The notes below the pieces were generated by a model. The model was given only the letters and a program-made list of their open reading frames with translations, was not told where the DNA came from and ran no database searches. Source: an uncultured Marinicella sp. (GTDB lineage: Bacteria; Pseudomonadota; Gammaproteobacteria; Xanthomonadales; Marinicellaceae). Taken from it: a stretch of DNA of 64,000 nucleotides. The DNA is taken from NCBI GenBank assembly GCA_947502595.1, contig CANNAM010000010.1, forward strand, positions 1 through 64,000, read 5' to 3'. The position numbers and the translations under genes are program-made. Numbering within the stretch: position 1 is the stretch's first letter; each line of letters begins with the position of its first letter. Positions 19,529 to 56,480 of the stretch are shown here, in pieces.

Positions 19529-22500
19529 TTATTGCTGTTTTTTTATTTTGGGTTTATTGTCTGCTTTGCGGGTGTAAACCAGCTCAATGGACTGGTCATC
19601 ACCTTGGGTGGTTTGTAAGTTAAGGTATTGGTTCAATCGGTATTTAAGCACCCAAAATCCAACCCTGTTGAACAATCCTTGGTTGTAAGAAACATAGAGT
19701 TTATCATTGATTTTTTTACCGGCCTCGATAACCGTATCCGCGGCAGTGGCTGCTTCTTTGATGGTCAATACATCAATCCCGAACTGGCTTTGAATTTGGT
19801 TGAATAAAGGGCTGCTCTTATTCAGCCCCATGACTATGGCCGCTTGTTGTAACTGTTGGCCAGTTAAATTGCCAGAGCCTTCCAACCCTTGACCAGTCAT
19901 GATATAGGCCAGAATTTCAAGATCAGATAAACTCGGTTCTGAGTACAGGTCAGATTGTAAGTTATTCACAGTACCACCCAGATTAACACCCGCAACCACT
20001 TCGCCTGAATTGGATTTTCTACTGGCTTTGACATTCAGACGCGGGTTGTCCAACGGTCCTGTGAACGTCAGCTCACCTGCTGTGATATCGAGCTTTTGGC
20101 CATAAATCTCATAACTGCCATCATTTAGGTTCAGCACCCCAACACCTTTGATGTTGCGATCCAAACCTTGGTTCAACTGTATATCACCGGTTAATTCTGC
20201 ATTTAACCCAATGACATCTAATTTAATGTGCTCTTTGATTTTTGCATTGATGTTTAAAGTAACAGGATAATCAACCCGCTCCACTGCTTCTGTGCTGTGG
20301 ATTTCCATATCTGCTGAATTACTTATGGTACTTGGTGGTAACTGTTTGATAATGACATGGCCATAATCAATCAAGACATCACCACTGATGTGGGTGGTCA
20401 ACTGATTGGCGGTCACTTGTAAATCAGGAGAAACATTGAATTTAATTTCAGGCAAGTTCATCAACATGAAATTATCACCTTTGAGGTCTCCGCTGTACTC
20501 CCACTGTTGTTTTGATAATGTCAGCTTGCCTTGTGAACTGAAATTGCCTTGGTTGACATCGGCTACATTGCGTCCTGACAATTGAATCAGATAAACAGGT
20601 TGTCGCAAGCCTTCGGTATTGATGCTGATGTTCAGTTGTTCAATGATGGTTCCCAGACGGGTTAATGTCAGGTACCCTGCTGGCTGACTGAAGGCAACAT
20701 CAATGTCCGGTTTAAGCAAATCACCTACGATGGTACCGGTGATTTTAAGCTGACCTTGCATTTCTTTGACTTCATCGGTAAGTTCGGTAATCAGTTCAGT
20801 GCCATTGAACACCCCGTCGACACTGGCTTCGATTTGCCATGCCTGCAGTTGTGATTGCAACGGTGTCAAAGCTTGTTGATCGGCTGCTGTTGGCTGATTA
20901 GGCAGATGGTTGAGCTTGCCTTGGAGTTGGATATAGCTTTGATCAGCCAACTTACTTTCGATGCTCAGAACCACCTGCTGGTTATTGGTGCTGGCTTTAA
21001 CTGCCAATAATTCGATGGCAGTTTGGTATGTGATTTGGTCAGCACTGCGCAATGTCATTTCACCTTCATTAAGGCTGATGTTCGAGTCAATATTAAACTT
21101 ATTTTGTTGCAATTCAAATTCAGCTTTACCTGAGAGCTTGCCTTTGATTTCAAGTTGGTCTGGTAAAAATATTTGTAGCGGTATAAGACTGAAAGACTCA
21201 ACAGTGAATGAACCTTGATAGTGGGCTTTGTCTTGGCTGATGTCATTCAGGTTTAAACACAAGGTGCCAGCTTCAACACCCTGCCAACACCCAGGTTCAA
21301 TACTGATTTGTTCAGCAATCATTATAGCTATCGGTGCTTGTAGTTTAATCTTTTTACCTGATTCAATGATCAATTCATGGGTCTTGAGCTGGCCTTGCCA
21401 CTGCGCTTTGGTTGGTGGCATGCCAGCAGCTTGGCTGGCTGCTTGAAATTGCCCTGTCAGGCTAAAAAAACTACTCAAGTCTGGCATCTCTAGTTGCACA
21501 TCTACTTGGTGCTTGTCCAACCAACCAGATTGTTTGACAGTAACAGATGAGATTTGTTTTTCACCCCAGGAGGCATTTGTGGCGGTTATTTCGGTCTTCA
21601 CAGACTGCTGCCATTGACCCTGAGAGTTAAGCACCAATTCAGCCACTCGGTAGTCCAGGTAATGCAGTGCCTGCGCTCTGATCTGGGCATCAATCTGCGG
21701 CTTAAGGTGGTCACCACTTATATGAATTGAACCATGCAACTCACCTGACAACTCCTGATCCAATACACTTAAGTCTGGCCAGACCAAGTCAGCAGTTAAA
21801 GTGACTGCTGTGGGGGACACTTCACCATTGATGATGATTTGGTTTTCACCTAGCAACAAAATGAGTTTATCGGTAGCCAACGTGTTTTTACTGTAGTGGG
21901 CAGCACCCATAAGTTTAAATGGTTCACCTTTGAGTTGGCCGGTGATTAAATTGTTGCTGGCATCGATGCTCAGCTCATCATGTTCATTCACATTGATGGC
22001 TAACTGCAACTGACCATTGATCATTCCTGGCCAATCATTGAGTATTTGTTGCGGATTAAAATTTTTCACCACTACTTGAGAGTTCAGGGCAAATTGATCT
22101 TGCCAACTCATCACCACGCTCAGCTCGATAGCGCCTTCTGAGGTTTTGACTTGAAACTTTTCTGTACTTAATTGTTGGCTGTCACCCTGAGCCCTTAGCG
22201 TGATCTGACTGGTGGGTAAATCAGTTTGTTTTACTGCGCTGTCCAGTGTGATGTGATAAGCATTGAGGTGGCCATTGATTTGGGCTTCTAGGTTTTCAAA
22301 GTTGATTGTCTGCTGATTGAAAGCAAGCACAGCGGAGCTGCTGGCAAAGGTCACAGCTAAACTGGGGGTTTGTTGCAACGCAGTCACTGAACCATTCAGC
22401 TTAAACTGTCCAGACAGCAGCTCACTGTCTAACAGCAGGTCATGACTTATTTGTAATTGGTTTAAATCACCTTGCAAGCCCCCTTGCCCATTCACTTGCT

Positions 22501-52700: not shown

Positions 52701-52953
52701 ACCCTCGGACCGTTACCGCCCCAGGCACCGACAACATGGCGGTGGTCAGCGGATAAGTCACTTGATCCTGAACCACTTGTGGCGCCTGACCAGGGTAACT
52801 GGTTTTAATGATAACCTGAACATCGGACAAGTCTGGAATGGCATCTACTGGTGTGTTTTTGATTGAATATACGCCAAACCCAATCAATACAGCGGTTGCC
52901 AACAACACCAACAATCGGTTGTTCACTGACCATTTAATCACTGCACCTATCAT
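49786..52953 (-). CDS. cusA: CusA, copper/silver RND efflux pump
   Basis: This 1055-residue inner-membrane RND transporter drives copper(I)/silver(I) out of the periplasm and cytoplasm using the proton gradient. It has 12 membrane helices and two large periplasmic loops. The three methionines of the CusA metal pathway are visible in L-M-Y-M-P, T-M-I-E-T-F-I-Q-F and D-M-L-A-T-G-I-K, favouring copper/silver over the zinc/cobalt CzcA type. It is the last gene of cusCBA, overlapping cusB by 4 bases. Confidence 0.95.
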   Translation of the reverse strand: MIGAVIKWSVNNRLLVLLATAVLIGFGVYSIKNTPVDAIPDLSDVQVIIKTSYPGQAPQVVQDQVTYPLTTAMLSVPGAVTVRGYSFFGDSFVYVIFDEDTDLYWARSRVLEYLSQVAPALPENAKPQLGPDATGVGWVYIYSLVDRTGQHDLSQLRSLQDWFLKYELQTVPGVSEVAAIGGMVKQYQVKVNPQKLQAYSIPLSKLLMSIKNSNQEVGASVVEMAEAEYMVRATGYIKSVSDLELVPLGTTSNGTPVLLKDVAQITLGPQMRRGVADLNGEGETVGGIISMRFGENAQDTIDGVKKRLESLKKGLPDGVEIITVYDRSALIEQAVDNLWQKLLQEFAVVILVCIIFLFHVRSSLVAILSLPVGILTAFIVMHMQGLNANIMSLGGIAIAIGAMIDGAIVMIENMHKHLENTELNDQNRWQIVIKSASEVGPALFFSLLIITVSFIPVFTLEAQEGRMFSPLAFTKTYAMAAAAALAVTLVPVLMGYFVRGKILAEHKNPASRLLSAIYMPILKTALRFPKSTLLLAFVVLMIGFWPVNKIGSEFMPALDEGDLMYMPTTYPGISIGKARQLLQQTNKLIKTVPEVATVFGKVGRADTATDPAPLTMIETFIQFKPKDQWRAGITAEDIKNELDSLVKLPGVTNAWVMPIKTRIDMLATGIKTPVGIKISGPKLDEIEAIGKQLEQILKDVTGTASVYSERVAGGRYIKIDINRERAARYNLSIAAIQQVIASAIGGMNVTETIEGQERYPVNVRYPQAYRNSPEKISQLPIITDSQQVIALGDVADVFVEDGAPGIKSENARLTGWSLVDIEGIDVGTYVAQAQQVVNQQLELPVGYSITWAGQYEYMLRAKQKLTYVVPLTLGIIVLLLFMNFRNFTEVAIIMGTLPFALVGSIWLMYLEGFNYSIAVGVGFIALAGVAVEIGVIMLVYLNQAYQSLLLKHQANNTQPTQQNILAAVTAGAGHRVRPVMMTSLSIIIGLLPILYGSGTGSEVMSKIAAPMVGGMISALVLTLIVLPVIYFLWRSSAHAKTEITHSADSQQKVMT

Positions 52954-54518
52954 TGTTCAGACTCCTTTGCTGAATGGTCCATTTTGGAATGGTCCATTTT
53001 GGAATGGTCCATCTTGGAGTGGTCCATCTTGGAATCGTCCATCTTAGAATGGTCCATCTTAGAGTGATCCATCTTAGAGTGGTCCATTTTGGAATGGTCC
53101 ATCTTGGAGTGGTCCATCTTGGAATCGTCCATCTTAGAATGGTCCATCTTAGAATGATCCATCTTAGAGTGGTCCATCTTAGAATGATCCATCTTAGAAT
53201 GATCCATCTTAGAATGATCCATCTTAGAATGATCCATCTTAGAATGGTCCATCTTAGAATGGTCCATCTTTGAATGATCCATCATTGAGTGGTCATGACC
53301 ATCCACTGACATTCGACTGAAGTCGGAGGTTTTACTCGACTCTGAATCAATTAAAAACTGTGCAGATGAAACCACACGGTCGCCAGCTTCAAGCCCTGCA
53401 ATGATTTCTGTGAATGCATCAAACCGTTTGCCAACAGTAACCTCAATAGATTTGAACTTACCCTCATCTAGTTGTAACACCACTCGGTCAGCATGGCCTG
53501 TTCTGATCACTGCTTCTGTGGGTACAAGTAAAGCTTCGGATTCTGGCACCGTAGACAGCTTAACTTCGGCAAACATATTGGGTTTCAGCACCTGATCAGG
53601 GTTATTGAAACGCAACCTCAGCTTAAGTGTTCTGGACTTGGCATCTAAGCTTGGATAAATAAAATCAACCTTGCCTTGCCATGTTCTACCAGGCAAAGCA
53701 TCAAGGGTCATGGTGACAACTTGGCCCAATGAAACAGCAGGCGCTTGTTTCTCCAGTACATCAACCTCAACCCAAACCTCGGCTAAGTTAGCCACAGTCA
53801 TGATATTGTCACCAGGTTTCACGTAAAAACCTGCCCTGACCTCTAAGTTATCCAATATACCTTCATGCGGTGAGTAAAAAGTCACACGCTGCTGTGCAAT
53901 TTTATTTTGTTTCAACTGTTTGATTTGTGCGCTTGAAAATTGCAGTGACTTGAGCCGATTTTCAGCGGCTTGAATCAGACGGCTGTTGTTGCGGGTCAAT
54001 GCCAACAACAACTCTTCTTGGGCATTGACCAATTCAGGTGAATAAATGTCATACAAGGGTTGTCCTATGGCCACAGGCTGGCCAAATGATTTGATGTGCA
54101 GCTCTTCTATCCAACCAGCCACTCTGGGATGGATATGGAACAATTGCTCTGCGTCGTATTTAACTGTACCCATGCCAGTGATGGATGAAGTTACCTTTTT
54201 GAATTCAGCAGTGGCTGTTCTTACCCCTAAATTATTGATCACAGCTGGAGAAATTTTGACAGTTCCTGCACTGTCGCTGCTGCCCGAGCCATCATCTCCA
54301 TAGTACGGCACCAACTCCATACCCATTGGCGACAGACCAGGTTTATCTCTGCGGTAATTGGCATCCATCGGAGCCACCCAATACAGCGGCTCCCTGACTT
54401 TTTCAGTCGCTTCTGTTGATTCAGCTTGAATCAATGCTGTATAGGCATAAGTGCCCGCTATACCTAACAACAGCCCAATCAGCAGGGCTGGAAAAACATG
54501 TTTAAATTGAATCCTCAT
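52950..54518 (-). CDS. cusB: CusB adaptor with a 20-copy Met/His tandem repeat tail
   Basis: This is a 522-residue periplasmic membrane-fusion protein. A membrane anchor (about 10-28) and a heavy-metal-binding segment Y-W-V-A-P-M-D near residue 47 precede the barrel-sandwich and beta-barrel domains. After about residue 405 comes D-G-H-D-H-S-M-M, then 20 consecutive D-(H/D)-S-K-M units. Eighteen carry histidine and two carry aspartate at position 2. E. coli CusB has no such tail. The repeats likely bind copper(I) or silver(I) and raise local metal before transfer to CusA. No CusF gene is adjacent, so the tail may replace it. Overlaps cusC and cusA by 4 bases each. Confidence 0.93.
   Translation of the reverse strand: MRIQFKHVFPALLIGLLLGIAGTYAYTALIQAESTEATEKVREPLYWVAPMDANYRRDKPGLSPMGMELVPYYGDDGSGSSDSAGTVKISPAVINNLGVRTATAEFKKVTSSITGMGTVKYDAEQLFHIHPRVAGWIEELHIKSFGQPVAIGQPLYDIYSPELVNAQEELLLALTRNNSRLIQAAENRLKSLQFSSAQIKQLKQNKIAQQRVTFYSPHEGILDNLEVRAGFYVKPGDNIMTVANLAEVWVEVDVLEKQAPAVSLGQVVTMTLDALPGRTWQGKVDFIYPSLDAKSRTLKLRLRFNNPDQVLKPNMFAEVKLSTVPESEALLVPTEAVIRTGHADRVVLQLDEGKFKSIEVTVGKRFDAFTEIIAGLEAGDRVVSSAQFLIDSESSKTSDFSRMSVDGHDHSMMDHSKMDHSKMDHSKMDHSKMDHSKMDHSKMDHSKMDHSKMDHSKMDHSKMDDSKMDHSKMDHSKMDHSKMDHSKMDHSKMDDSKMDHSKMDHSKMDHSKMDHSAKESEQ
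52978..53292 (-). repeat. 21-unit 15-bp tandem repeat in the 3' part of cusB
   Basis: Units of 15 bases start every 15 positions from 52978 to 53278 without a break in frame. A longer 90-base (six-unit) pattern is visible: units at 52993-53082 closely match those at 53083-53172. The array therefore probably grew by block duplication. Length variation between strains would keep the reading frame. Confidence 0.9.
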
Positions 54519-56033: not shown

Positions 56034-56480
56034 TCAGCAGAAAATGGGTGGGCGGAATAACGCCGAACTGGTATTTGTGTTGATAAAAAGGGTGGATTTC
56101 ACAACCGAGGTGGTTGCTGTTGGATAAAACTCTGAATGAGTTGGGTTTTCAATTATAGGACTTGAACTGTTACAAGTGCCTTGCGGACACAGACAGTCTG
56201 ATGCACAACAATCACTCATGTCAGCATGGGATGTAGGTTCCATTTTTGCACCATGCATATTGTGCCCAGCATGTGGGTTATCTACTTCGGCTGCATGGCT
56301 GTTAGCCATGGTAACTTGATGAGTGCCCATGTCATGATTATCCATTGCCATCTGGCACACAGCACTGTCTGCCATAACTTGGCTCAGTGAAAACACAAGC
56401 ATGAGAAAGGCCATGATTTTATTGCTGTGTTTGTATGTAGTGACTTGCTTTATCATCGACTCTATATGATACTTAATCAT
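56034..56480 (-). CDS. Secreted Met/His/Cys-rich protein, CopL-like
   Basis: This 148-residue small protein has a signal-like hydrophobic segment (about 20-37). A middle region is rich in H, M and D (D-N-H-D-M-G-T-H, H-A-G-H-N-M-H-G), and a cysteine cluster D-C-C-A-S-D-C-L-C-P-Q-G-T-C follows. It ends L-F-R-P-P-I-F. This resembles CopL-type metal-binding regulatory proteins and unnamed small proteins before copper efflux operons. It probably binds copper in the periplasm. It lies 127 bases upstream of cusC on the same strand and may be co-transcribed. Starts at 56480 and 56456 are both possible. Confidence 0.7.
   Translation of the reverse strand: MIKYHIESMIKQVTTYKHSNKIMAFLMLVFSLSQVMADSAVCQMAMDNHDMGTHQVTMANSHAAEVDNPHAGHNMHGAKMEPTSHADMSDCCASDCLCPQGTCNSSSPIIENPTHSEFYPTATTSVVKSTLFINTNTSSALFRPPIFC

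Follow-up and report, generated by a model that had tools for sequence, protein, structure and literature searches.

A tandem Met/His pentapeptide array on a CusB-type adaptor of Marinicella, a candidate substitute for a fused CusF domain

The Cus cluster and its repeat-bearing adaptor

The window, that is, the whole stretch of 64,000 nucleotides from an uncultured Marinicella sp. that was analysed, carries a minus-strand gene cluster in the order copL-like/cusC/cusB/cusA (Table 1), with a 4-base overlap at each of the cusC/cusB and cusB/cusA junctions. The adaptor core of CusB was recognised by PF16576 (E 1.6e-79) and TIGR01730 (148 bits, cut-off 94.9) and its heavy-metal-binding domain by PF19335 (24.2 bits, cut-off 23.6), and the closest solved chain was that of E. 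coli CusB (3ne5_B, E 4e-57). Against the NCBIfam CusB model PRK09783.1 the score was 232.8 bits, below the cut-off of 390, and by this model the protein is classed as a CusB-type relative and not as the equivalent of enterobacterial CusB. The methionines of its W-x-x-P-M and M-G-M motifs (M51, M65, and M67) align with the three Met of the solved E. coli CusB and are invariant across 26 aligned relatives. In the pump, M566, M616, and M665 align with M573, M623, and M672 of E. coli CusA, the three Met of its periplasmic metal site. Considering that the three-Met sites of both CusA and CusB are kept, the acceptors for a metal feeder are therefore in place.

Table 1. Features of the cus locus, in window coordinates
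Feature	Position	Strand	Evidence
CusA-type RND pump, 1055 aa	49786..52953	minus	TIGR00914 1228 bits, cut-off 701
CusB-type periplasmic adaptor, 522 aa: N-terminal helix 8-31 (predicted), heavy-metal-binding domain with M51/M65/M67, adaptor core, repeat tail	52950..54518	minus	
Pentapeptide array, CusB C-terminal tail, aa 413-517	52968..53282	minus	unit-by-unit reading, 21 units
Six-unit duplication, overlap entry: units 12-13 and units 14-17	53028..53117	minus	unit comparison
CusC-type outer membrane factor (OEP family), 480 aa	54515..55957	minus	
Cys/His/Met-rich small protein, 148 aa, weakly CopL-like, first gene of the cluster	56034..56480	minus	33.8 bits, cut-off 40

The CopL-like protein had no Pfam match, even at E<=1; it could be one more protein that handles metal in the periplasm and feeds or regulates the pump. 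The same genome also holds two CopA-type multicopper oxidases, two CopBs, and three copper-type P-type ATPases above the family cut-off. The Cop system is thus doubled beside Cus: two separate copA-copB clusters are found on contigs C1 and C31 (L192-L195), with response regulator and histidine kinase genes on the opposite strand.

The C-terminus of this CusB is formed by tandem Met/His pentapeptides, in frame within the cusB reading frame. An earlier note, made from the sequence alone, had placed them at 52978-53292 and counted about 20 Met and 18 His per 100 residues, which proved right to about 10 bases and within one unit, respectively. Read unit by unit from 53282 down to 52968, the array consists of 18 MDHSK, 2 MDDSK, and a final MDHSA, and its 105 residues include 21 Met, 19 His, and 23 Asp. 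Tandem Repeats Finder reported the region 52972-53294 with period 15, 21.5 copies, 90% matches, 0 indels, and a score of 450; the sole other tandem repeat reported in the window lies at 22405-22442 (18 bases, 2.1 copies). In an AlphaFold2 model made with 26 aligned CusBs the adaptor core was confident and pLDDT was below 50 across nearly all of residues 389-522. This is in line with a disordered tail, a prediction weakened by the low pLDDT that is always seen for low-complexity sequence. A plus-strand ORF (52974-53273, 99 aa) was rejected as a gene, being the reverse reading of the repeat, and the Pentapeptide-repeat family (PF13599/PF00805) was rejected as a chance resemblance of period five (PF13599 27.4 bits, cut-off 38).

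Growth and selection within the array

Units 8-13 (53177-53088) and units 14-19 (53087-52998) are identical at 89 of 90 bases and, because they differ at that single base, a recent growth of the array by duplication of six units is read from the sequence. The peptide itself is held by selection while the DNA drifts. By comparison with the unit consensus, the 20 internal units showed 23 silent and 2 replacement differences (15 and 1 with the second duplicated block left out), where 6 of the 45 possible single changes of a unit would be silent. All four silently changeable third positions vary and, among the other eleven positions, one does. The corresponding p value, 2e-18, or 1e-12 without the duplicated block, is optimistic since the units share ancestry, and the direction is plain because the silent sites vary and M, D, H, S, and K are kept.

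Silent and replacement differences were also counted in other arrays, giving 6/0 in the CopB of G383, 4/1 in the CusB of G012, and 2/2 in the CusB of G003. The signal was weaker in the CusB of G013 (12 silent, 10 replacement) and in the CopB of G113 (1/4), which counts against the reading that we favour below; some other arrays were too uniform for this comparison.

CusF domains, repeat tails and the recurrence of the motif

CusF is well studied as the chaperone that serves the Cus pump in the periplasm. The earlier note held that a CusF gene elsewhere in the genome, combined with a tail that binds no metal, would refute a replacement of CusF by the tail, and the search for such a gene returned none: PF11604 had no match in the window's CusB and 0 matches in its genome (99.78% complete, 64 contigs), and a profile of 14 CusB-fused CusF domains gave 0 matches there at E<=10. 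Among the genomes of the family PF11604 matched 20 of 33; the 13 that gave no match include the window's own (G000), G012, G003, and G016. The 14-domain profile matched G126, G088, and G772 (3 of 8 genomes) and found no CusF in G012, G003, G016, G032, and G099. PF11604 also found none in the genomes of L042, L046, L052, L075, L077, and L080, some of them MAGs of completeness not given, and matched in the other 4 searched alongside. Hence, CusF was found in 0 of 9 genomes with a repeat-bearing, CusF-less CusB (G000, G012, G003, G016, G032, G099, and those of L046, L075, and L077), despite its known role for the Cus pump. It was equally found, with PF11604, in 0 of the 3 genomes where CusB has neither CusF domain nor array (L042, L052, and L080). 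Since these three lack domain, array, and genomic CusF, a feeder may be dispensable, which argues against the replacement of CusF by the array.

The tails after the adaptor core were read in 110 loci, namely, the best 80 of 405 relatives (on named contigs) and 30 loci from the window's genome and its relatives, and CusF domains in them were scored with a home-made profile. The counted set comprised 95 CusBs with at least 45% identity and a tail, window included; 15 loci were dropped, and L106 is a fragment without a tail. The profile missed the divergent fused CusF of L096 (G005), which Pfam matches and which, at less than 45% identity, lies outside the counted 95. In most CusBs the core ends in a conserved stretch, S-S-K-x-S-D-F-x-R-M, after which the CusF domains come, and the tail of the window's CusB begins at the position of these fused domains. 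One to three CusF-type domains followed the core in 84 of these 95 CusBs and none in 11. At least three M-x-H motifs were present in the tails of 8 of these 11, the exceptions being L042, L052, and L080, and outside CusF in 10 of the 84 CusF-bearing proteins. Array and CusF are therefore not mutually exclusive, both being present in 10 of 95 CusBs. Their association (array with CusF loss) had a raw Fisher p of 4e-5, which ignores kinship, and a kinship-aware test leaves one usable pair on supported branches.

Other tail architectures were also seen. Many Colwellia-type CusBs (L001, L010, L015, and others) have as their only fused CusF one without the M-x-M pair and the metal-site His, with the fold kept. 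Two Shewanella CusBs (L033 and L050) carry about 20 units of HDMSSM/HDMGSM type before a CusF domain without Met ligands, a different motif and a different order of parts.

Three arrangements occur in the genus of the window: CusF together with an array, a long array by itself, and a short array by itself. A repeat tail without CusF domain is found in G000, G012, G003, and G016 (19, 11, 7, and 3 M-x-H motifs, respectively), and CusF followed by MDHSxM- or MDHSQHxM-like units in G001, G002, G011, and G013. In a quickly built tree of the CusB core, with SH-aLRT as the only support measure, the first four group as a single clade with SH-aLRT 100, and the four with CusF plus repeats are its sister group. 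The clade of all eight has SH-aLRT 91, not starred, and its neighbours mostly bear CusF. The simplest story that we can infer is that the repeats arose behind CusF, that CusF was lost once in the clade of G000, G012, G003, and G016, and that the array then lengthened in the window's species. The repeat-only tails of L046, L075, L077, and L095 are placed elsewhere on this tree. More than one origin of the repeat-only tail is likely, because that state requires five changes on the best tree, two of them forced by well-supported branches.

The motif was also searched as a 33-base degenerate pattern of three Met separated by DHS[KQ], reading one locus per matching genome. Matches were obtained in 18 of the 398 genomes searched from the order and in 3 of 369 sampled from the class, the window's own being in both. 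Because the pattern read backwards matched 0 of the 398 order genomes, the array is judged not to be a product of chance. The 20 genomes with a motif array carry it in CusB (7), in CopB (12), or in a protein of G656 (1). In CopB it sits at the N-terminus; in CusB it is C-terminal in six cases (G000, G012, G003, G013, G126, and G088) and N-terminal in one (G099). With a slightly longer pattern, the window's genome gave 15 matches, all within the CusB array; in its two CopBs the corresponding stretches are looser (MDHGDM, for example).

Some of these loci have features of their own. In the CusB of G099 (L169, 1321-2760) the MDHSQM array directly precedes the heavy-metal-binding domain, and the 14-domain profile found no CusF in that genome. 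In G656 (L197, 913-1812, minus strand) a small protein with weak multicopper-oxidase and sub-threshold cupredoxin matches has six MDHS-type units after the signal region. The copB array of G383 (L166, 1300-1560) has 15 uniform MDHSK units that do not share the reading frame of the signal-peptide end; ahead of them MDHSTM is read in a different frame, and one unit differs by a base in length. This frame break could be a sequencing error or slippage within the array, and the repeat might serve for on/off switching.

Proposed role of the tail and comparison with known systems

The earlier note had offered two roles for the array, a copper/silver sponge or a substitute for CusF. The second is now the leading idea, because the genome has no CusF and the tail occupies the position of the relatives' fused CusF, and the first stays as its rival. 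Taking into account as well the selection on the residues and the recurrence of the arrangement, we propose, with a probability of about one half, that the tail acts as a disordered arm with multiple Cu(I)/Ag(I)-binding sites, tethered to the CusB core in place of a CusF metallochaperone domain. The tail would collect periplasmic Cu(I) on its repeated Met/His ligands and would hand it by ligand exchange to the three-Met site at the CusB N-terminus, to that of CusA, or to both. The array would in this way take over from the fused CusF as tethered collector and compensate for its loss. In E. coli, CusF passes Cu(I) to the CusB N-terminus, by which CusA is activated, and the activated pump can then take the metal of CusF (PMC6235853). 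If a disordered repeat can do this job, what the pump needs would be local tethered Met/His ligands and not a specific fold. Against the tail as feeder, it might be that other periplasmic copper proteins of the genome feed the pump.

A broader version of this proposal is more tentative, and we consider it possible but doubtful. An unfolded array of metal ligands, gaining and losing units of five residues through slippage, would have taken the place of a folded metallochaperone domain in more than one lineage. The feeder would then be an arm resembling a polymer, and its capacity would evolve with the number of repeats and vary from strain to strain. The earlier suggestion that copy number could tune resistance found no support: M-x-H counts differ greatly among the four CusF-less congeners, but the comparable N-terminal region of PcoB can be greatly truncated with copper resistance left intact, according to PMC12509749.

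The main rival is that the array only buffers periplasmic Cu or Ag beside the pump, with no directed handover, as was proposed for SilE. Its 21 units could bind several ions, and SilE, disordered and with His/Met ligands, is called a molecular sponge in PMC8686694; the presence of the same array on CopB, which is not an RND adaptor, also suits this role. Yet a buffer need not sit exactly at the CusF position nor accompany the absence of CusF, and the tail of G016, with only 3 M-x-H motifs, would have little capacity, so that we regard it as a serious alternative that is nonetheless rather unlikely. It is less probable still that the array is mostly neutral, a short motif expanded by slippage in a tolerant tail with useless excess units. 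The recent six-unit duplication, the wide differences in unit number between congeners, and the existence of tails with neither CusF nor array (L042, L052, and L080) are what such a process would leave, but neither the excess of silent over replacement differences among the units (23 to 2) nor the return of the same motif in copper proteins is expected from it.

That selection on Met and His speaks also against a structural role, in which a disordered tail would lend stability to CusB, to the pump, or to a partner and its metal ligands would be of little consequence. Levels of PcoB and PcoA do fall when the disordered region of PcoB is lost, but replacing nine His or four Met is reported in the same source to disrupt PcoB efflux (PMC12509749), and we hold this role to be improbable to much the same degree as neutrality. 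Least credible is that the methionines scavenge oxidants and so protect the pump under copper stress. Oxidation and repair of CusF Met under copper stress are treated in PMC9302797; this role leaves unexplained the conserved His and Asp and the restriction to copper-related proteins.

Returning to the tethered arm in place of CusF, we compared it with what is known of similar segments. In the open-licence PMC literature, among the matches listed, there was no title describing a tandem-repeat CusB tail and no related paper for MDHSKM-type and MDHXXM-type motif strings. The PCuAC chaperones such as AccA are periplasmic copper proteins that, like the window's CusB, end in a flexible His/Met tail. 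Unlike what we propose for CusB, however, the AccA tail is short, binds mainly Cu(II), and is dispensable in vivo in Neisseria, which makes it a counter-example to the feeder reading (PMC13006917). The N-terminal region of PcoB/CopB is likewise a disordered ligand-rich segment on a copper-efflux protein, and several CopBs bear the very same MDHS[KQ]M array, although on another host protein, an outer membrane barrel, and at the other end. In PcoB this His/Met region is described as needed for copper efflux and as tolerating both swapping and shortening, including a large truncation (PMC12509749).

Closer to the window's protein is the C-terminal peptide 401-430 of Salmonella SilB, which is likewise a disordered segment with Met residues at the end of a CusB homologue; it binds Ag+ and was proposed to usher it to the pump (PMC8686694). 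It differs in having about 30 residues with two sites and no tandem array, in a system that also has SilF and SilE. The nearest comparison is with the adaptors that carry a fused CusF, known on SilB/CusB and found as CusB-CusF fusions in 22 gammaproteobacteria (PMC4446572, PMC3548706); the C-terminal domain of Cupriavidus metallidurans SilB is CusF-like (PMC4446572). These fusions resemble the window's CusB in that the same adaptor is extended at the same terminus, by a part thought to be involved in Cu(I)/Ag(I) handling (PMC4446572, PMC3548706). The difference is that the extension there is a folded beta-barrel, whereas the CusB of the window has in its place a tandem array, predicted to be unfolded, and no CusF domain.
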